This document shows positions 6,203 through 34,309 of a DNA stretch of 44,307 bases, one piece after another. Each line of letters begins with the position of its first letter. Within the stretch, counting starts at the first letter, position 1. The position numbers and the translations under genes are program-made. Under the pieces are notes generated by a model. That model made no database searches, was not told the origin of the DNA, and saw only the letters and a program-made list of their open reading frames with translations. This DNA is from a virus. Location of the stretch: positions 1 to 44,307 of IMG/VR virus record IMGVR_UViG_3300017963_000107, one strand, 5' to 3'.

Positions 6203-6406
6203 TTAATCATCTTTTTCTATATTAATACAATTTTTCTCTAATGGAAGCATATATACATAGCAATAAGCTCCAATTAAAAATAATTGACCATGTAAATCCT
6301 CTTTAATATGTGCGCTCCCCAGGAGGTAAAACATAAAAATGTCAAGAGCAAATGTTATACCGTGTTTGATTATATCTAATTTGTTTTTCATTTCTTTTAT
6401 TTTCAT
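6203..6406 (-). CDS. Small membrane protein, 67 aa
   Basis: The protein has hydrophobic stretches at about residues 15-30 and 40-55 and an acidic C-terminus. Its start overlaps the 3' end of the XRE regulator by 65 bp; an ATG at 6391 would shorten the overlap slightly. Function unknown. The overlap suggests co-expression with the regulator. Confidence 0.55.
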   Translation of the reverse strand: MKIKEMKNKLDIIKHGITFALDIFMFYLLGSAHIKEDLHGQLFLIGAYCYVYMLPLEKNCINIEKDD

Positions 6407-6683
6407 TATTTATACAAAATTCAATAATATATACAGATTTTTCTACTTCCTTAGAAAAGGTTTCCATATATACATTTTCGTTCATTATATCATACACAAG
6501 AGAGAAAGAACTTAAGCTTATTTCAATAGCTTCTAGATATCTTAAAAGCGTTGAAGTTTTAATTCCTGCGCTTTTCTCTATTTTGCTTACACGTTCTCTG
6601 CTGATTTTCATTTTTACTGCAACTTCTTCTAATGTTATTCTCTTATATTCTCTTATCAATTTAAGAACTTCGCTTATTTCCAT
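6342..6683 (-). CDS. XRE-family helix-turn-helix regulator
   Basis: About 113 residues from the ATG at 6683 (MEISEVLKLIREYKRITLEE). Residues 3-60 match an XRE/Cro-C1 HTH: R-x-Y-K-R-I-T-L-E-E-V-A-V-K-M-K-I-S is the scaffold and first helices, and R-E-R-V-S-K-I-E-K is the recognition helix and its partner. The C-terminus is short, without a cleavable LexA-like domain. Position beside divergent promoters with a perfect inverted repeat suggests it represses itself and the rightward early operon. The frame is open upstream to 6788, but that region contains the promoter. Confidence 0.75.
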   Translation of the reverse strand: MEISEVLKLIREYKRITLEEVAVKMKISRERVSKIEKSAGIKTSTLLRYLEAIEISLSSFSLVYDIMNENVYMETFSKEVEKSVYIIEFCINNENKRNEKQIRYNQTRYNICS

Positions 6684-6716
6684 ATATATAATTAAATATT
6701 TATTAATATAACTATT

Positions 6717-6842
6717 ATTATACAATATTATTTTAATGTCAATAGTTTTATTCTTTTTTATGAATATTTTTATTCCAAAATAGAACACTTTTATTTGTTT
6801 TCGGAATAAAACTATTGACTTTTAAAAACATCATGCTATTAT
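6717..6842. promoter_or_regulatory. Divergent early promoters with symmetric operator-like arms
   Basis: The leftward promoter has TTGACA at 6742-6737, with TATAAT at 6722-6717 (spacer 14) or AATAAT at spacer 17. The rightward promoter has TTGACT at 6815-6820 and TATTAT at 6837-6842 (spacer 16). A perfect 15-bp inverted repeat (TCAATAGTTTTATTC at 6739-6753 and its complement at 6804-6818) carries both -35 boxes. A smaller TTTTATTCC/GGAATAAAA pair lies inside. The 24-bp rightward arm recurs exactly at 11337-11360 before the replication gene. This is the layout of a two-way regulatory switch for the XRE protein, by inference. Confidence 0.65.
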
Positions 6843-8378: not shown

Positions 8379-8585
8379 ATGGAACACGTATTACAAATTA
8401 TACAAGATATACTTTTTATTTCTGGAACTATTTTAATTTTATTTGGAATTATTGGAAATCGTATTGATAAAACGGAAATGAACGAGGAAGAAAGAATATT
8501 TAATAATAAAATTAAAGTTATGCAAGAAGAAAGTAGAGTGCGTTTAGAAAATGAAGCAAAAAGAAGAGAGGAAGAAAAAATATAA
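8379..8585 (+). CDS. Small membrane protein with charged helical tail
   Basis: A 68-residue protein. A hydrophobic segment at about residues 5-26 (IIQDILFISGTILILFGIIG) is followed by a Glu/Arg/Lys-rich amphipathic tail. It starts after an AATAGGTAGATT leader that overlaps the upstream stop. Function unknown. Confidence 0.65.
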   Translation: MEHVLQIIQDILFISGTILILFGIIGNRIDKTEMNEEERIFNNKIKVMQEESRVRLENEAKRREEEKI

Positions 8586-8586
8586 T

Positions 8587-8841
8587 ATGAAAATAATTGC
8601 AAAATTGTTAAACATCATTTTCAAGAAAAAGCGTAGAATGGAAATAGATAGAATCGCAAAAGGCTATAAAAAAGATAGAGAGTATTTCTTAGACAAAATA
8701 GATTTCCATTCAAATGCTTTTGTTAAGAATTCGTTTAGAAGCGAGATTGAACTTTATAGAAAAAATGTATTGGAAGATAGAGAAGAGAAAGCAATTGGGG
8801 AATTTAGAAAGTATATTGAATATTACAATAGTAGTAATTGA
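8587..8841 (+). CDS. Hypothetical protein, paralogue of the gene at 7235
   Basis: About 84 residues from the ATG at 8587, which lies 1 nt after the upstream stop. Most residues 1-60 match the 7235 product, including YFLDKIDFHSNAF. It is the last gene of the early operon and is followed at once by a terminator hairpin. Confidence 0.75.
   Translation: MKIIAKLLNIIFKKKRRMEIDRIAKGYKKDREYFLDKIDFHSNAFVKNSFRSEIELYRKNVLEDREEKAIGEFRKYIEYYNSSN
8677..8748 (+). repeat. 72-bp exact repeat, copy 2
   Basis: Identical to 7325-7396; see that copy. Confidence 0.9.
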
Positions 8842-8877
8842 ACTACCTAGGATTACTCGGTAGTTCCAACTTTTTTT
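8840..8877 (+). terminator. Rho-independent terminator of the early operon
   Basis: Stem GAACTACC (8840-8847) pairs with GGTAGTTC (8859-8866) around an 11-nt loop; seven T residues follow at 8871-8877. The stop codon of the convergent gene at 8853 lies in the loop. There is no T-tract on the opposite side, so it is directional for rightward transcripts. Confidence 0.75.
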
Positions 8878-9299
8878 GAATATTCGTAGTTCATTCTGTC
8901 AATTTCAACTAGAAATGTGAAAAACCTATATAAATCAACATCTATATTTTCATAATTAGTTGTCAGTGTGAAACAATTATCTTGAATCTCAATACCGAAG
9001 TAATCCATAGTTCTTTCCATTTCTTCTTCTGGAAAGCCACTCGTGTACATCCAACTATATATTAAATCACCCTCCCTGAGTACCAAAGTCTCATTATTTA
9101 TAGCTCCAGTATCATTATCTTGGTCAATCTCAAAATTTATTTCAATAGCATCTCCGTCACTCTTAATGAAAGATGTTATTATAATCGTAGTCTCATTTCC
9201 ATCTCCGATATTAATACATACATGCTTTATAAAGTTTAAATTGATTAAACTCTTTAAATGATACACTTCTAACATTCTCTTACTCGCCTCTCTTAACAT
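8853..9299 (-). CDS. Hypothetical protein, 148 aa
   Basis: A 148-residue acidic protein predicted to be rich in beta strands, without a recognised motif. It is convergent with the early operon and lies downstream of the nuclease gene at 9312, 12 bp away, so the two are probably co-transcribed. It was not assigned to a family. Confidence 0.7.
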   Translation of the reverse strand: MLREASKRMLEVYHLKSLINLNFIKHVCINIGDGNETTIIITSFIKSDGDAIEINFEIDQDNDTGAINNETLVLREGDLIYSWMYTSGFPEEEMERTMDYFGIEIQDNCFTLTTNYENIDVDLYRFFTFLVEIDRMNYEYSKKVGTTE

Positions 9300-9311: not shown

Positions 9312-9890
9312 TTAGTCATTTATACATTTAAAATTTGAAACTTTCTTATACTTCTCTATTTTTGAAAATTTATTACAATTATACCTACAATATGGTATCG
9401 CCAAGCCTTCTTTTATCATTTTAAACTGGTAATCCTTCCCACCAACTTCAATATACCCTACAAGCCTTTTATAATAATCAATAGATATTGGAACAACTCT
9501 AACACATTTGCCCAACAATAACTCCTTTGCCCTCTCAGTTGCAACCCCAGCCAACTCTGTTGTCTCTTTAAAAGTAATACCCATTGCCTCCGCTTGTCTT
9601 GCAATCCTAGCATCATTACTAAATTTGTATCTATCATAATCTGGGGCGTCCATACATGCCACTCTCACTTTTAAGCATACACCTTCTGCACATGCGGTTA
9701 TGGTATCGCCGTCGCTCACCTTGATTACTCTATGCAATCCGAATTTACAAGGTTGTATAATTTGTTTCACCTTGGCTTCAGCATTATTTGATTTGATAAT
9801 AATCAATATAAATAGCAATACAATTGCGCATAGCACAATAAACAAATCAATATTAAACTTCTTATATTCTTCTCTTTCAAATTTTTTCAT
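9312..9890 (-). CDS. Membrane-anchored thermonuclease (staphylococcal nuclease homologue)
   Basis: A 192-residue protein. One hydrophobic segment (about residues 16-33, LFIVLCAIVLLFILIII) would anchor it or direct export. The rest is an SNase/OB-fold nuclease domain: VSDGDT (about 58-63), a V-R-V-A-C-M-D-A-P-D segment, A-T-E-R-A-K-E-L-L, and D-Y-Y-K-R-L-V-G-Y. These correspond to the Ca-binding Asp, the catalytic Arg/Glu region and the second Arg of the family. The usual glutamate after DAP is aspartate here, a conservative change that may lower activity. It may degrade nucleic acid at the envelope. Confidence 0.8.
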   Translation of the reverse strand: MKKFEREEYKKFNIDLFIVLCAIVLLFILIIIKSNNAEAKVKQIIQPCKFGLHRVIKVSDGDTITACAEGVCLKVRVACMDAPDYDRYKFSNDARIARQAEAMGITFKETTELAGVATERAKELLLGKCVRVVPISIDYYKRLVGYIEVGGKDYQFKMIKEGLAIPYCRYNCNKFSKIEKYKKVSNFKCIND

Positions 9891-10043
9891 GATTTCTTAT
9901 ATTTTTTATTCATTAGTTTGATGTTCTATTGTTGTTATTTCTAACCCTCCTCTTATTGCACTATATCATCAAAGATAGAATTAATAATTTTATAAACTCT
10001 ACTCTTGTTGGATTGCACAAATATTCCATAAATATATAATAAA
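9891..10043. other. Intergenic region, nothing clear
   Basis: AT-rich leader upstream of the nuclease gene. It contains an AGAGGAGG sequence on the minus strand near 9950, but no start codon follows at usable spacing. No strong promoter or hairpin was seen. Confidence 0.5.
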
Positions 10044-10127
10044 TTACTTAAAAAAGTATGCTATTGTTAGTAAAATTCCTGCTAAGCAGACAAAACATGT
10101 TAAAATACATGCTATTATAAAAAACAT
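10044..10127 (-). CDS. Tiny single-TM membrane peptide, 27 aa
   Basis: The ORF encodes a 27-residue, almost wholly hydrophobic peptide (MFFIIACILTCFVCLAGILL and seven more residues). It would form one transmembrane helix. Its ATG is 15 nt beyond the U-tract of the leftward switch-like RNA (10211-10143). The same spacing is seen at 32919. No Shine-Dalgarno site. A chance ORF of this length is possible; the consistent context raises its credibility. Confidence 0.45.
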   Translation of the reverse strand: MFFIIACILTCFVCLAGILLTIAYFFK

Positions 10128-10142
10128 AATATAATTTTATAC

Positions 10143-10247
10143 AAAAAGTGAGGCCAATTTGGAAAGCTTTACGCTCATTGGCCTCATTATCAATAATAAT
10201 TTAAGCTTTCCAATTCAAATAATAACACAAGTAATTTTAATTGTCAA
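10143..10247 (-). ncRNA. Promoter plus interleaved-arm leader RNA with terminator (copy 2 of the design)
   Basis: Minus-strand promoter: TTGACA (10247-10242), 17-bp spacer, TATTAT (10224-10219). The likely +1 is G10211, the first base of arm A, GGAAAGCTT (10211-10203). Then follow a 16-nt AU-rich loop, arm B TGAGGCCAAT (10186-10177), 7 nt, arm A' (10169-10161), 2 nt, arm B' (10158-10149), and T5 (10147-10143). B/B' with the T-tract is an intrinsic terminator; A/A' interleaves with it. With 2 nt between A' and B', both full stems probably cannot coexist, so an either/or switch or RNA-RNA pairing is suggested. It precedes the 27-aa membrane ORF. Confidence 0.7.
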
Positions 10248-10255
10248 CACTTATT

Positions 10256-10409
10256 AAAAAAACTACCGAAAAAATTCGGTAGCCAACAAATAGATAATTA
10301 TGAGAAATACGACTAATTAAATAATGAATTATTATGCTGATAATGTTTGATGAAAAGTATATTTTTTTAGTCGCAATTTAATTTTAGATAATATTTATTT
10401 ATTTGTCAA
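10256..10409 (-). ncRNA. Small-RNA transcription unit (promoter, about 119 nt, terminator)
   Basis: Promoter on the minus strand: TTGACA (10409-10404), 17 bp, TAAAAT (10386-10381). The predicted +1 is G10374. The first eight RNA bases, GCGACUAA, can pair with UUAGUCGU at 10316-10309. The unit ends at a strong terminator: CTACCGAA and TTCGGTAG (10282-10263) around four bases, then T7 (10262-10256). No convincing ORF lies inside. The promoter is a copy of the one at 10965-11024. The terminator can also end read-through from the gene at 10820. Confidence 0.65.
10263..10282 (-). terminator. Rho-independent terminator (leftward)
   Basis: An 8-bp GC-containing stem with a 4-base loop, followed on the minus strand by seven T residues (10262-10256). 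No T-tract is on the other side. Confidence 0.85.
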
Positions 10410-10411
10410 CT
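10352..10411. repeat. 60-bp exact direct repeat, copy 1 (promoter repeat)
   Basis: Identical to 10965-11024 with an offset of 613 bp. The repeat contains a full leftward promoter and the first bases of the transcript. The two copies flank the gene at 10410-10820, whose stop codon overlaps this copy. Confidence 0.95.
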
Positions 10412-10820
10412 ATATTTTTATATATTCCATTATTTTTTTTGGACAAAAATTTTCAAGTTCAATTGTACCAAGATAAATACTCGATAAAAGATCCAGAATT
10501 TCATAATAATCTTTTTCGTTAAAATTCTCTTTTATTAGGACAACTCTGAGATACCCATAATTATGATTAACAATTTTTGTCCTGGCTAAAAATTCACATA
10601 TATTAATCTCGCAAAATGTCCTATAACCTTTTTGCTCTGAAGTTATAACAAATAAATGTTCATCACACTCAAGTAGCATTTCTCTTTCTTTGTCTTTGTG
10701 CGCATCATTATACTCATCTGCACTAACAACTGGGTTATAGTATTTAACTCCTTTTTCTTCCAAGAATGGAATTAATTGCTCTCTCCAGTTATTATTTATT
10801 GTACCACCTAAAAATAACAT
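10410..10820 (-). CDS. Nucleoside 2-deoxyribosyltransferase-like protein
   Basis: A 136-residue protein. The start MLFLGGTINNNWREQLIPFL, then Y-Y-N-P-V-V, E-C-D-E-H-L-F-V-I-T and Y-R-T-F-C-E-I-N match small phage and bacterial members of the nucleoside 2-deoxyribosyltransferase-like clan. In that clan the N-terminal G-G-T loop binds the nucleotide and a glutamate near the C-D-E/S-x-A-E position acts. It could modify or salvage nucleotides; catalytic competence is not proven. The gene has its own promoter and a 166-nt structured leader, and is flanked by 60-bp promoter repeats, the layout of a moron. Confidence 0.7.
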   Translation of the reverse strand: MLFLGGTINNNWREQLIPFLEEKGVKYYNPVVSADEYNDAHKDKEREMLLECDEHLFVITSEQKGYRTFCEINICEFLARTKIVNHNYGYLRVVLIKENFNEKDYYEILDLLSSIYLGTIELENFCPKKIMEYIKI

Positions 10821-10987
10821 AAATACCTATTAAAATTTTTTAAAAAATTAATTGATTTTTTATTATATAAAATGAGTTTGTGATAATTTGTCACAAACTG
10901 CTACTTGCGATAGTGTGGCTTATGCGTCAAATTATCAACTAACAATCACCACTGCCAACAGGACGAAAAGTATATTTTTTTAGTCGC
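10821..10987 (-). promoter_or_regulatory. Long structured 5' leader of the 10820 gene
   Basis: The predicted +1 is G10987. The leader has a 9-bp hairpin (10899-10891 with 10883-10875) whose 7-nt loop plus part of the stem is complementary over 10 bp to 10937-10928 upstream, so a loop pseudoknot or alternative pairing is possible. An AGGU Shine-Dalgarno sits just before the ATG. The length and pairing resemble a cis-regulatory leader. No known riboswitch class was recognised. Confidence 0.5.
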
Positions 10988-11024
10988 AATTTAATTTTAG
11001 ATAATATTTATTTATTTGTCAACT
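10965..11024 (-). promoter_or_regulatory. 60-bp exact direct repeat, copy 2, carrying a promoter
   Basis: TTGACA (11022-11017), 17-bp spacer, TAAAAT (10999-10994). Identical to 10352-10411. This copy drives the 10820 gene through its long leader. Confidence 0.85.
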
Positions 11025-11099
11025 TATTGAATTTTAATTTTCTTATTATAAAATATTTTTATGTGCGGTAGTTGCAGATGATTTTTAAGCATTTAAATT

Positions 11100-11246
11100 A
11101 TGACAGAAGATAAAAAGAATCAAAAAAAAGAGGATGAAATATCATTTTATAAATTATCAGAAATTTTGTTTCCTGAAGTTATAACATTTACAGAAGAAGA
11201 ATCAAAGAGACATTTTGATATTGTAAACTCTTTTTATCATGATTGA
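11100..11246 (+). CDS. Small hypothetical protein, 48 aa
   Basis: ATG at 11100, stop TGA at 11244. The product is highly charged (MTEDKKNQKKEDEISFYKLS and 28 further residues), hydrophilic and has no recognised motif. A TATAAAAT box lies upstream near 11047-11054. It is isolated between leftward and rightward blocks. Coding status is moderate. Confidence 0.45.
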   Translation: MTEDKKNQKKEDEISFYKLSEILFPEVITFTEEESKRHFDIVNSFYHD

Positions 11247-11336
11247 AATCTAATTAAATATTGTGGTATTTCGGTATATTTGTATATTAATACAAGACAC
11301 AACTCTCAAAATGAAACACAAATCTTTTTTAAAAAA

Positions 11337-11520
11337 AATAAAACTATTGACTTTTAAAAAAAATATTATAAATTTAATAATTACCATGGTGAGTTAAATA
11401 TGCCTATTTTTTTCACTATGGGGGTATAAATAGGAGTTGAGTTGCTACTTCTCCGACAAGGTTTAGCGTTAGCCTTTTATGCCCTCACTTATTACTAACG
11501 CTATTTTGTAACGCTATCTT
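11337..11520 (+). promoter_or_regulatory. Promoter and long structured leader of the replication operon
   Basis: The 24-bp block 11337-11360, with TTGACT at 11347-11352, repeats the early promoter arm at 6805-6828. A TATAAA follows at 11367-11372 (spacer 14). The leader of about 140 nt has a CCTATTT/AAATAGG hairpin (about 11402-11433) and an AGCGTTAG/CTAACGCT hairpin (about 11464-11505), with TAACGCTA repeated once more before the ATG. Such a leader could control initiator synthesis. No antisense promoter was seen. Confidence 0.55.
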
Positions 11521-12669
11521 ATGACAAAAAACAAAAAAGGTTTCACAAAAACTCCGAATGAAATTCTTGACGACAATGATTTGTCATGGTCTGCTAAAGG
11601 TATTTTTTCTTTTATAAAAAGCAGGCCGAAAAATTGGGAATTTTTCTTAAACGAAATACTTAAACATTCAAAAGACAAACAAACATCAACAAAAAATGCC
11701 ATAAACGAGTTATGTGAAAAAGGCATAATAAAAAAGACACAAATTAGAAAAAAAGATGGTTCTATGGGTGGCTTGAAAATAGAAATATTGTGCCACGAAT
11801 GCCATTCAGCCGATGATAGGTTTTCCGACGACGGCTTAACCGACGACGGCTTAACCGACGACGGCTTAACCGACGACGGGAAATCAACTACTAATAATAC
11901 TAATATAAATAATACTAATATAAATAATACTAATATTATTACACCAACAACAAAAAAAGATTTTTTTAATGATTTTATAAACACTAATTTTGAAATAGAA
12001 AACATGACTATAACAAAAGATTATTTTATAGAACAGATGATTAAATTTAAAAAATACCCATTTTCTAAAGATTATAAAGAAAATCAAGCAAAGGAAGATT
12101 TAAATGATTTGTATAAATTTTTTAACAAAGAAAATTTCACAAGAGACCAATTACAATATTCTGTAAATAGAATCTTAGATACAGAAGAAAAAATGTATAA
12201 ATTGCCGGTTCCCGCGATATTCTCAAAATATAAAAAAGAATACAAAATAAAAGAAGAACTAAAAATCCAAGCAGAAGAAGAACAGAAACTAAAAGAAAAA
12301 AGAGAAAAAGAAGCTGAGAAAAACGCAAAAGAGTTGCAAGATATGTATAGAAGAAAAGGTGAGGAGCAAAAAACAACTAATGAAATTTGGGAAGAAATAA
12401 AAGAAGATTTGAAGGAAAATTTTTCAGAAGAAGTTTATGAAAATTGGATTTCAAAATTAGAAATAGTGTCTTTAAATTCAAAAGAAGTTATTATGTCAGC
12501 TCCAAGCCATTTTTATCGTGATTATATTTTTAACGAATATTTAGAAGGCGTGAAGTTAAAAAATGAAGAAACAGGGGAACTATACTATAGAGATGGAATA
12601 AAACAAATATGGCTTAAAAAAATCCCCTCCATAGCTACATTTAGAATTATAACAATTAAAAAAAATTAA
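11521..12669 (+). CDS. Replication initiator: winged-helix plus DnaA domain I-like C-terminus
   Basis: A 382-residue protein. Residues 1-90 form a winged-helix region of the phage O/DnaD-like type (TPNEILDDNDLSWSAKGIFS, then T-K-N-A-I-N-E-L-C-E-K-G-I-I). Residues 102-120 are three copies of DDGLT, followed by an Asn/Thr/Ile repeat linker. Residues 230-285 form a charged coiled coil. Residues 287-346 resemble DnaA domain I: I-W-E-E-I-K-E-D-L, Y-E-N-W-I-S-K-L and A-P-S-H-F-Y-R-D-Y-I. In DnaA this domain contacts DnaB helicase, so the protein may bind the origin and recruit host helicase. No phage helicase is seen. First gene of the long rightward operon. Confidence 0.75.
   Translation: MTKNKKGFTKTPNEILDDNDLSWSAKGIFSFIKSRPKNWEFFLNEILKHSKDKQTSTKNAINELCEKGIIKKTQIRKKDGSMGGLKIEILCHECHSADDRFSDDGLTDDGLTDDGLTDDGKSTTNNTNINNTNINNTNIITPTTKKDFFNDFINTNFEIENMTITKDYFIEQMIKFKKYPFSKDYKENQAKEDLNDLYKFFNKENFTRDQLQYSVNRILDTEEKMYKLPVPAIFSKYKKEYKIKEELKIQAEEEQKLKEKREKEAEKNAKELQDMYRRKGEEQKTTNEIWEEIKEDLKENFSEEVYENWISKLEIVSLNSKEVIMSAPSHFYRDYIFNEYLEGVKLKNEETGELYYRDGIKQIWLKKIPSIATFRIITIKKN
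11825..11937. other. Putative intragenic replication origin (iterons plus AT-rich repeats)
   Basis: Inside the initiator gene lie three perfect 15-bp repeats CCGACGACGGCTTAA (11825-11869) and an 11-bp partial fourth copy (11870-11880). They are followed directly by about 2.8 copies of a 15-bp all-but-one AT repeat AATACTAATATAAAT (11896-11937). The GC-rich iterons next to an AT-rich stretch within the initiator gene match the layout of the lambda O-gene origin. Function is inferred. The alternative is simple expansion of a coding linker, since 15 bp is five codons. Confidence 0.55.
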
Positions 12670-31577: not shown

Positions 31578-32291
31578 TCAATAACCTCTTAAACCACCTG
31601 CGCTTCTAAAACCTTGATATGGAGATCTTGCGGTAGCAAGTCCACCTCCAGCCATTCCACCAGCCATTCCACTAAGTCCACCTCCACCCATTCCACCCAT
31701 CATTCCTGCTGCTTGCATTACAGAACCTATGCCTTGTTGAACACCTTGAGTGACTCCATAAATTCCAGCAGCTTTTGCTTGACCCACGCCTTGCATCAAA
31801 GGAGACAAAGCAGCGGCCTCACCAGTATATAAATTAGCTGTTCCAGTTGCAGCAGGATATCCGAATTGCCCAAGACCACCATACAAATTGTTCAACCATT
31901 GTTGATAATCTTGAGTAGCTAATCCTTGGCCGTATTGTGTCAAAGCCTTTTGTTGTGCGCCACTTAGCAATCCTCCTCTTGCAGCTGCGCCACGTTCCCT
32001 TGAATTTATACCCTCCTCCAAAGCAAATTGGTATCCTGGGCTTGCTTGGTATGCCTGCTCTGCTCCTCCTCCTAATAGAGCTTGCTCGTATGCTGGTAGA
32101 GCTCTCAATCCGAATTCTCTGTATGGAGAAAGTTGTTCTCTTGCTTTTCTTGTTCCTATTCTTTGAGCATTCATTGCATTTTCTATTGCCCTTTGTTGCG
32201 TTCCAGCTGCTTTTTTAGCTCCAATCGCTCCGACTGTTGCCCCTAAAAGTCCGCCTCCCCCACCTGTTATTGCTGACGCTGCTTTACCCAT
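31578..32291 (-). CDS. Ejection protein, gp7-like, 237 aa
   Basis: Opens with a Gly/Ala-rich segment. The middle S-P-G-Y-Q-F-A-L-E-E-G-x-N, R-G-A-A-A-R-G-G-L-L-S-G and Q-D-Y-Q-Q-W-L-N-N-L matches the DNA-transfer (gp7) type of podoviruses. It ends in a glycine/methionine-rich tail. It would be packed in the capsid and ejected to help the DNA cross the envelope. Confidence 0.8.
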   Translation of the reverse strand: MGKAASAITGGGGGLLGATVGAIGAKKAAGTQQRAIENAMNAQRIGTRKAREQLSPYREFGLRALPAYEQALLGGGAEQAYQASPGYQFALEEGINSRERGAAARGGLLSGAQQKALTQYGQGLATQDYQQWLNNLYGGLGQFGYPAATGTANLYTGEAAALSPLMQGVGQAKAAGIYGVTQGVQQGIGSVMQAAGMMGGMGGGGLSGMAGGMAGGGLATARSPYQGFRSAGGLRGY

Positions 32292-32685
32292 TTATTAATA
32301 ATGTTGTTATTTGTACATTGTCTTCCCTGACAAAACCAAATTTATCAAATTTTTTTAACATATTCTCTTCTTTTATATCTATTTCTAATCTGCAAGCTTT
32401 GTATCCCATTTCTTTAACTTTCTCTATAAGATTTTTTATTAAAAAATTCATACAATTAATTCTATTCTCTTTTTTTGCTTTTTTATTTCTTAAAATCCAA
32501 CTTATTATACAATAATCACTATCAGTCATATATATAAATCCACAACATAGTTTTTCATTATTGTTTTCTATCATTATGCCATTTGATGGTAAATAATCTG
32601 GCAATATTGGATTCATGCCCCAATCACTCCACCATTTGTACACATCTGGATAATCAAGCTCAAAATCAAACGACCTAGCTTCCAT
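32284..32685 (-). CDS. GNAT-like acetyltransferase, 133 aa
   Basis: The protein resembles the small GNAT-fold proteins often encoded just before podoviral gp7 genes: Y-K-W-W-S-D-W-G, L-P-S-N-G-I-M, C-G-F-I-Y-M-T-D-S and a final K-F-G-F-V-R-E-D. The acetyl-CoA loop is not clear. It overlaps the gp7-like gene by 8 bp. The target is unknown. Confidence 0.65.
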   Translation of the reverse strand: MEARSFDFELDYPDVYKWWSDWGMNPILPDYLPSNGIMIENNNEKLCCGFIYMTDSDYCIISWILRNKKAKKENRINCMNFLIKNLIEKVKEMGYKACRLEIDIKEENMLKKFDKFGFVREDNVQITTLLING

Positions 32686-32748
32686 TACTTACACCTATAA
32701 TTTACTGAAATTTTTTTCCTGAAACAACTAAAATAAAGTTGTATTTAT

Positions 32749-32777
32749 AATATAAATAATATTTTTTAATATGTCAA
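32749..32777 (-). promoter_or_regulatory. Promoter of the ejection and tail operon
   Basis: TTGACA (32777-32772), 17-bp spacer, TATATT (32754-32749). The -35 lies in a TTAATATGTCAA block that is the inverse of TTGACATATTAA at 32787-32798. So two divergent promoters share a 12-bp inverted repeat with the -35 boxes 9 bp apart. Confidence 0.65.
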
Positions 32778-32786
32778 TATTTTTTC

Positions 32787-32907
32787 TTGACATATTAAAA
32801 ACAATATGTTAAAATTATATTGTTTGCATTGTGGAATTAAAAAATATTGACATATTAATATACGTCGGCTACCCCACAATGCAAACTAAGGTAGCCGACA
32901 CTTTTTT
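32787..32907 (+). ncRNA. Promoter plus interleaved-arm leader RNA with terminator (copy 1 of the design)
   Basis: Promoter: TTGACA (32787-32792), 17 bp, TAAAAT (32810-32815). Predicted +1 is G32822, exactly the first base of arm A, GTTTGCATTGTGG (32822-32834). Then follow a 29-nt AU-rich loop with a third copy of TTGACATATTAA (32847-32858), arm B GTCGGCTACC (32864-32873), arm A' (32874-32886, no gap), 3 nt, arm B' (32890-32899) and T6 (32902-32907). B/B' plus T6 is an intrinsic terminator. A/A' is 13 perfect base pairs and crosses it. Three bases cannot easily span a 13-bp stem, so an exclusive switch is favoured. The 32919 gene starts 11 nt later. Confidence 0.75.
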
Positions 32908-32918
32908 ATATAAAAATT

Positions 32919-33182
32919 ATGAAAATAGTAGATTTTGTGCCATTATTTATAAATATTGCAATTGTTATTGTATTGATTTGTCTTGAAAAAGGAGGCAAAA
33001 TAACAAATTCGCAAACTATGAATTTTCTTACGTTTGCAAACATGGCATATTTAGGATATATTATTTTTTCTCCTATGTTAGAGAGGGATTTTTTTGGTCA
33101 TTATTGCAAAAATTCATACCAAAAAAACTCTTCGCCAAAATGGCAATATACCGGAGAGGAACAAATAAAAAGAGGAAGATAA
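32919..33182 (+). CDS. Small membrane protein after the switch-like leader, 87 aa
   Basis: Hydrophobic segments at about 7-22 and 38-52; a polar C-terminus follows. First gene of a rightward island in the leftward late region. The same frame continues beyond the TAA (33180-33182) for 22 coding-like codons (A-E-E-K-E-T-E-P-V-I-K-D-V-T and more) to a TGA at 33249. A nonsense mutation or stop read-through could link them. Function unknown. Confidence 0.6.
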   Translation: MKIVDFVPLFINIAIVIVLICLEKGGKITNSQTMNFLTFANMAYLGYIIFSPMLERDFFGHYCKNSYQKNSSPKWQYTGEEQIKRGR

Positions 33183-33261
33183 GCAGAAGAAAAAGAGACA
33201 GAACCAGTAATTAAAGACGTAACGCCGGCTCCAAGCAATTTAATTAATTGACAATAATAAT

Positions 33262-33474
33262 ATGGATACAAGAGAAAAAGTCGCCATTATAATGTGGAAC
33301 AAAAAAAATATGAAAAAAATATTAGAGAAAATATTAGAAAATGACAGCGAACTAATAAAAGAATTTGATATAATAATAGAAGAGTTGGGAGGAATAGAAA
33401 AGCTGGAAGAACTAAAAAATATAAACGAACTTTATAAATTTATTAAAAACATAAAACATGCAAAATATGAATAA
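33262..33474 (+). CDS. Hypothetical protein, 70 aa
   Basis: A 70-residue, charged, helical protein. It is in the accessory island and overlaps the next gene by 17 bp. No recognised motif. Confidence 0.6.
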   Translation: MDTREKVAIIMWNKKNMKKILEKILENDSELIKEFDIIIEELGGIEKLEELKNINELYKFIKNIKHAKYE

Positions 33475-33676
33475 TGATAATGATCAATTTATAGCTTTAG
33501 TGTTAATACCTTATATAATAAGCTTTTTTTTGGCAAGTGTAAAAGGAGTTGCTAGTTGCTTTGGTTATAAATTCTTTTATAGCTGGCATATGGCGTTGCT
33601 TCCTGCATATATAACTACTGCTTTATTTTCTTTTATAATCTTTTTTATTTTAGCAGGATGCGCATTTTCAGATTAA
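33458..33676 (+). CDS. Small membrane protein, 72 aa
   Basis: Hydrophobic stretches at about 12-28 and 45-68 flank a short loop. Start is the ATG at 33458 or 33467. Function unknown; part of the accessory island. Confidence 0.6.
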   Translation: MQNMNNDNDQFIALVLIPYIISFFLASVKGVASCFGYKFFYSWHMALLPAYITTALFSFIIFFILAGCAFSD

Positions 33677-33706
33677 TTTAATTAATTAAAACAATATTTA
33701 AATATT

Positions 33707-34309
33707 ATGATTATTTTTCGTTTCGGATCAACGTACATATTCTCTAAAAATTTACTAACCCTTGTTTTGTCTTTAACTTCATTTACAATAAATTATTTTA
33801 GAGAAAAATTTTTTAATTATACAATATGTACAAATGATACAAGTAAAGGAATTTATTTTTTAAATGAAAAAGGTGAGACTAATTTTCGCTTATGCGGATT
33901 TTGCAATAAAGCTAAATATGTATATTGCGTAAATCCGAGAGAAGATTTCAAGAAAAATATTGACTTTTCTATCTCTGAGATGGAATGTAATTTTAAATTA
34001 TATCAAGAAGAAAAAATAGAAAAAAAAACTTTTGAAAACAGATTGAACATTTTAAAGAATAATATTAGCTCTTTTGTACCCACAGTGCTTTCTTATGAGG
34101 AACGTCTTTATTTTAGTTTTCAATGTAACGACAATCCATTGAAATTTCCTATGGCATTTGATTATGAATTATTTGAAAAAATTGAGCTTGTAGACAATTT
34201 GCATGAAATATTAGACGATGCACGTAAACATTTATATATGCATAGTGGTAGGAATATTCCAAAATACTTATGGCGTGGAACCCAGAAATTTTTTGATGAA
34301 AAAGTTTAA
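33707..34309 (+). CDS. Hypothetical protein, 200 aa
   Basis: A 200-residue protein. The first 30 residues are moderately hydrophobic. The sequence has a C-G-F-C pair and no known domain. It is the last gene of the island and is convergent with the 34316 gene, 6 bp away. The island is a candidate moron, expressed separately from the virion genes. Confidence 0.65.
   Translation: MIIFRFGSTYIFSKNLLTLVLSLTSFTINYFREKFFNYTICTNDTSKGIYFLNEKGETNFRLCGFCNKAKYVYCVNPREDFKKNIDFSISEMECNFKLYQEEKIEKKTFENRLNILKNNISSFVPTVLSYEERLYFSFQCNDNPLKFPMAFDYELFEKIELVDNLHEILDDARKHLYMHSGRNIPKYLWRGTQKFFDEKV

Follow-up and report, generated by a model that had tools for sequence, protein, structure and literature searches.

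What purpose could be served by a leader in which a strong predicted promoter is separated from a small membrane-protein gene by two perfect stems that interlock, one of them in the form of a terminator? The leader lies in a lone virus record, IMGVR_UViG_3300017963_000107, of which the whole stretch of 44,307 bp (30.6% G+C) was analysed and is here called the window. A sequence-only reading had placed at this site a promoter, a +1, arms in the order A-B-A'-B', a T6 run and an open reading frame (ORF), and had described the arm pairs as perfectly complementary yet interleaved. Read directly, with the arm pairing checked, all of these coordinates proved right, and so did the pairing (module I1 in Table 1).

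Table 1. Positions in the window of the features of both leaders (I1, I2), of the repeats and divergent promoter at I1 and of the ORFs downstream.
Module	Feature	Coordinates	Strand	Remark
I1	Promoter TTGACA-17-TAAAAT	32787-32815	+	11/12 consensus positions
I1	Arm A GTTTGCATTGTGG	32822-32834	+	begins at predicted +1
I1	Loop 1, 29 nt	32835-32863	+	contains third TTGACATATTAA copy, 32847-32858
I1	Arm B GTCGGCTACC	32864-32873	+	5' half of terminator stem
I1	Arm A' CCACAATGCAAAC	32874-32886	+	inside terminator loop
I1	Arm B' GGTAGCCGAC	32890-32899	+	3' half of terminator stem
I1	T6 tract	32902-32907	+	predicted RNA 3' end; AC between B' and T6
I1	87-aa ORF, hydrophobic N-terminus	32919-33182	+	11 nt past T-run; no family match
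I1	Three exact TTGACATATTAA copies	32766-32777, 32787-32798, 32847-32858	-, +, +	repeat search
I1	20-bp perfect inverted repeat	32766-32785/32839-32858		around divergent promoters; 0/2000 shuffles reach 20 bp
I1	Divergent promoter TTGACA-17-TATATT	32749-32777	-	towards 133-aa gene 32284-32685
I2	Promoter TTGACA-17-TATTAT	10219-10247	-	promoter scan
I2	Arm A TTGGAAAGCTT, 11 bp	10203-10213	-	start <=1 nt from predicted +1 (10212)
I2	Arm B TGAGGCCAAT	10177-10186	-	interleaved scan
I2	Arm A' AAGCTTTCCAA	10159-10169	-	within terminator loop
I2	Arm B' ATTGGCCTCA	10149-10158	-	immediately after A' (0-nt gap); 10-bp B/B' stem
I2	T5 tract	10143-10147	-	one C between B' and T5
I2	27-aa ORF MFFIIACILTCFVCLAGILLTIAYFFK, one transmembrane stretch	10044-10127	-	15 nt past T-run

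The I1 promoter, with its -35 at 32787-32792 and, 17 nt on, its -10 at 32810-32815, carries a TG one base upstream of TAAAAT (an extended -10) and is one of the eight promoters in the whole window that score at least 11/12. The predicted +1, G32822, follows seven positions on from the -10. Of the two interleaved stems, A/A' has 13 bp and B/B' 10 bp, neither can be extended, and TAA (32887-32889) makes up the 3-nt gap between A' and B'. The earlier statement that no known riboswitch was recognised agrees with Rfam, which gave no match in the window at gathering score and chance-level matches only at a relaxed threshold; nor was an ORF with a Shine-Dalgarno-like motif, as for a leader peptide, seen in the leader of either module. 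Arm B' of I1 contains AAGGTAG, which resembles the ribosome-site motif of this phage; at about 25 nt from the ATG it was rejected as a ribosome site. The motif itself, TAGGTAG, is an unusual one that stands a few bases before the ATG of many genes (for example 6883, 7496, 8046, 8379, 13764 and 16810), and most virion genes have no clear ribosome-site motif.

A dedicated scan for the arrangement A-B-A'-B'-T detected a second interleaved module, I2, in the same phage, on the minus strand at 10247-10143. The two modules have in common the arm order, the orientation, the start at +1, the T-run (short in I2, T5 and then G) and a downstream transmembrane ORF. Between their arms there is no evident common sequence, their alignment is weak outside A+T-rich parts, and the pairing is present in both. 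At the level of sequence, such pairing with differing letters comes as close to covariation as these data allow, and a second copy with entirely different letters says that the interleaved design is real; I1 and I2 may have diverged from one copy or have arisen independently. Because I2 repeats the layout of I1 with different arm letters, coincidence is unlikely, and so is a role in the DNA only.

The interleaved leader is also far beyond chance. The strict scan (A-B-A'-B' followed by a T-run, with at least 8 perfect pairs in A and at least 7 in B) returned I1 and I2 in the window, 0 in 100 dinucleotide shuffles and no interleaved arrangement in some 1.5 Mb from other loci, which overlap in part. 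When the terminator hairpin was kept fixed and the leader and loop were shuffled, a 13-bp A/A' appeared in 0/20,000 shuffles for I1, and an A/A' of at least 11 bp in 7/20,000 for I2. For comparison, 106 terminator-like hairpins (loops of 10-25 nt) were taken from phage and bacterial DNA other than the window, and their loops were paired with the 70 nt upstream; the best match was 8 bp and most were 4-5, and the four such hairpins in the window reached 13, 11, 6 and 5 bp. Furthermore, because only eight promoters of the window reach 11/12, two A arms at a strong +1 would hardly be expected by chance. A relaxed scan also picked up a pair of weaker leaders, I3 (10937-10875, minus strand), in the leader of a 136-aa gene (10410-10820), and I4 (11422-11503, plus strand), in the leader of the replication initiator gene at 11521. 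We do not retain them as further instances: shuffles in the relaxed scan average 0.78 and reach 4, which puts I3 and I4 not beyond chance alone, and I4 has only 5 perfect pairs in the loop-to-upstream test. A 63-nt block occurs twice in the window with 98% identity (10349-10411 and 10962-11024); it carries a minus-strand promoter, TTGACA-17-TAAAAT, with the first transcript bases, and the two copies run into different leaders, each ending in a hairpin.

In both modules a G+C-rich B/B' stem of 10 bp is followed 0-2 nt later by a U-run, as in an intrinsic terminator, and a terminator tool scan that omitted I1 had a loop limit of 8. The I1 leader folds better than 200/200 of its shuffles (z -3.3; I2, z -2.7), the bare hairpins of I2 have -12.0 (A/A') and -15.2 (B/B') kcal/mol, and the segment order of an H-type pseudoknot, S1-S2-S1'-S2', is exact in I1 and I2. 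The sequence-only reading took the leader for a two-state attenuator, in which A/A' forms first as an antiterminator and leaves the gene on, and B/B' terminates and turns it off when A or A' is tied up. Several features agree with this: A/A' is the predicted fold of the emerging RNA and is complete with B' still inside the polymerase, the bare I1 hairpins are isoenergetic (A/A' -18.0, B/B' -18.1 kcal/mol), the terminator loops of 16 (I1) and 18 nt (I2) are unusually large, and both full stems should not coexist, since the 13 or 11 A/A' pairs could not be spanned by the 3 and 0 nt that separate A' from B'. The earlier remark that simultaneous full stems are improbable is right in that sense, but partial stems, of 6-9 and 9-10 bp, are allowed. 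Folding with pseudoknots, which had been suggested as a check, was carried out with a simple home-made enumeration (rule-of-thumb loop-length limits, penalties of 7 to 12 kcal/mol), and in both modules this crude model puts a partial H-type pseudoknot ahead of each single hairpin: 9 inner A/A' pairs with 9/10 B/B' pairs in I1, and 6 A/A' pairs with 10 B/B' pairs in I2. The stems would then be expected to conflict at the four or five outermost A/A' pairs, mostly A-U in I1, and 'mutually exclusive' is, by this model, too strong a term for them. A partial pseudoknot that retains 9-10 terminator pairs argues against a clean on/off device, as do arms A and B that, unlike those of classical antiterminators, have no bases in common; neither a ligand, nor a protein, nor a leader peptide has been identified that could throw the switch. 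We judge the strict two-state attenuator unlikely. Of the switch reading, what stands is that the promoter and the membrane gene are separated by a leader that would act at the RNA level and has a terminator of the intrinsic type, whereas two exclusive states are not demanded.

With no base common to A and B, and with a crude model that favours the two stems largely side by side, the leader may be a stable small RNA or a terminator that is tuned and leaky, instead of a device with two states. Based on sequence and statistics, we infer transcription, the 5' end, termination, read-through and co-folding at both modules, and the same evidence supports a leader element that would control, at the RNA level, read-through into small membrane genes. 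The explanation that we favour, and to which we give a little better than an even chance, is that these leaders fold into an interlocked H-type structure which makes termination before a small membrane-protein gene incomplete and tunable. The RNA would adopt this structure during its synthesis: arm A, its first bases, would pair with A' as A' exits the polymerase, the terminator stem B/B' would next close around A', and the outer A/A' pairs would have to yield before B/B' could close fully. Because of this need to yield, the stems would restrain each other without common bases, and termination at the U-run would therefore be incomplete and open to tuning. Most transcripts would probably end as a small RNA of about 85 nt (I1) or about 70 nt (I2), and a minority would read through into the gene, which starts 11-15 nt later.

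The genes that would be reached in this way are small. In both modules, an ATG 11-15 nt past the T-run opens an ORF whose N-terminus is strongly hydrophobic by hydropathy, and such a hydrophobic ORF stands near 0.9% of arbitrary positions. The 87-aa protein behind I1 had no match in Pfam, PADLOC or NCBIfam, and none to a ToxN/AbiQ-type endoribonuclease or to AbiF; the 27-aa ORF behind I2 had none in NCBIfam or PADLOC, and its predicted product would be compatible, by hydropathy, with a type I toxin (small hydrophobic peptide). These data bear on another explanation, namely that the short RNA is itself the product, a regulator or RNA partner, with A/A' shielding its 5' end and shaping it and with the downstream gene expressed by leak. 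The gene order is that of type III toxin-antitoxin, AbiF/RCd22 and IsrK loci (PMC5086642, PMC12373285, PMC4825925), the 5' end is buried in a predicted stem, the downstream ORFs are short and hydrophobic, and a plain small RNA with the terminator as its 3' end would be served by the same sequence. Against this, the RNA has no tandem repeats and no known target in trans, and nothing downstream matches ToxN, AbiF or another toxin family, so that we consider a free-standing RNA product rather doubtful. I1 itself forms the left border of a cassette of four plus-strand ORFs (32919-34309), none with a convincing family match. Because this plus-strand block is set into minus-strand virion genes, the cassette resembles a moron.

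It could also be that the inverted repeats act on the DNA, as protein sites by the promoter, and that the RNA pairing is incidental. The intergenic region of I1 does hold three operator-like TTGACATATTAA copies, two of them overlapping -35 boxes and one inside the leader loop, together with a 20-bp inverted repeat whose arms are separated by 73 bp, or some seven turns of DNA; this arrangement is suggestive of a regulator that loops the DNA or binds cooperatively. Yet none of the TTGACATATTAA copies overlaps an A or B arm, no exact copy is present at I2, and both modules have T5-6 behind a G+C-rich B stem, which leaves a role in the DNA only very improbable. Rather, because the operator-like repeats flank divergent promoters, I1 is probably regulated by a DNA-binding protein in addition. 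The 133-aa protein on the other side of these promoters belongs to phrog_17252; in phages of Flavobacterium and Tenacibaculum, too, its relatives adjoin virion genes (L058 47240-47665, L059 37380-37790). In our order of preference, the tuned and leaky terminator with a pseudoknot leads, the clean switch and the independent small RNA (gene expression by leak) follow, and the DNA-only role closes the list.

The phage that carries these modules has only distant relatives among the sequences searched. Its window includes P22-like tail and head genes (head closure Hc3/phage stabilisation protein, DNA ejection protein, Mu-gpT-like capsid) as well as a RecE-like exonuclease, RecT, SSB, a replication initiator and an endolysin. 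The best match of the terminase was 56% in viral contigs and 43% in isolate phages, and Hc3 matched at about 36-42% (full-length matches, 35-38%). When the ejection protein, Hc3, the terminase, the capsid and the 200-aa and 87-aa proteins were used as queries for close relatives, they gave distant ones or none, a DNA search against phages and plasmids gave no relative, the bacterial genomes of two classes gave distant ones only, and an exact-arm pattern search for I1 and I2 in all viral contigs gave no match. Elsewhere in the window, the exact 24-mer AATAAAACTATTGACTTTTAAAAA recurs at 6805-6828 and 11337-11360, in plus-strand promoter regions before 6883 and the replication initiator gene; its sequence and placement make a common early control likely, perhaps with the HTH protein encoded at 6342-6788 as the regulator. 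A hairpin, GAACTACC-11-GGTAGTTC (8840-8866), lies between the convergent genes 8551-8841 (+) and 8853-9299 (-), and its T-rich plus side suggests that it is probably a terminator.

More tentatively, and with the odds in our opinion somewhat against it, I1 and I2 may stand for a phage-borne class of leaders before small membrane-protein genes, in which a terminator and a counter-stem without common bases compete through pseudoknot geometry only (a topological attenuator) and the arm letters change freely. If the interlocked layout does tune termination, such an attenuator would constrain complementarity and spacing and leave the sequence free; elements of this kind would escape homology searches as well as folding without pseudoknots, and could be common and unannotated. 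It would also offer a simple explanation for a low and adjustable expression of small membrane genes, be they morons, exclusion proteins or toxins, from strong promoters.

In classical attenuators, the antiterminator and the terminator share a strand. I1 and I2 resemble transcription attenuators and riboswitch expression platforms in their succession of promoter, competing RNA stems, intrinsic terminator and gene, but their A/A' and B/B' stems share no position and would conflict through geometry alone. The P4 CI and P1 C4 RNAs are phage leader RNAs that control termination, acting via a processed RNA in trans; the likeness to I1 and I2 is that of a phage leader RNA tied to termination, whereas here all four arms belong to one leader and Rfam searches gave no C4 RNA match. 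In type III toxin-antitoxin systems (ToxIN, CptIN, TenpIN) and in phage AbiF/RCd22, a promoter, a short structured RNA and a Rho-independent terminator precede a gene that is expressed by read-through, and the ToxI and CptI RNAs are H-type pseudoknots (PMC5086642, PMC12373285). The sequence layout of I1 and I2 likewise joins promoter, RNA, terminator and gene in one unit, but without tandem RNA copies (32640-32960 and 9890-11540 examined), and the genes downstream encode, unlike those of type III systems and AbiF/RCd22, small membrane proteins with no toxin-family match. IsrK of prophage Gifsy-1 is a terminator-ended small RNA whose read-through isoform serves as mRNA (PMC4825925); its alternative helices extend into the downstream ORF and govern translation, whereas the stems of I1 and I2 come before the U-run and include that of the terminator. 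The descriptions of type III systems, AbiF/RCd22 and IsrK do not count the terminator stem as part of a pseudoknot, whereas in the predicted structures of I1 and I2 it makes up one half.
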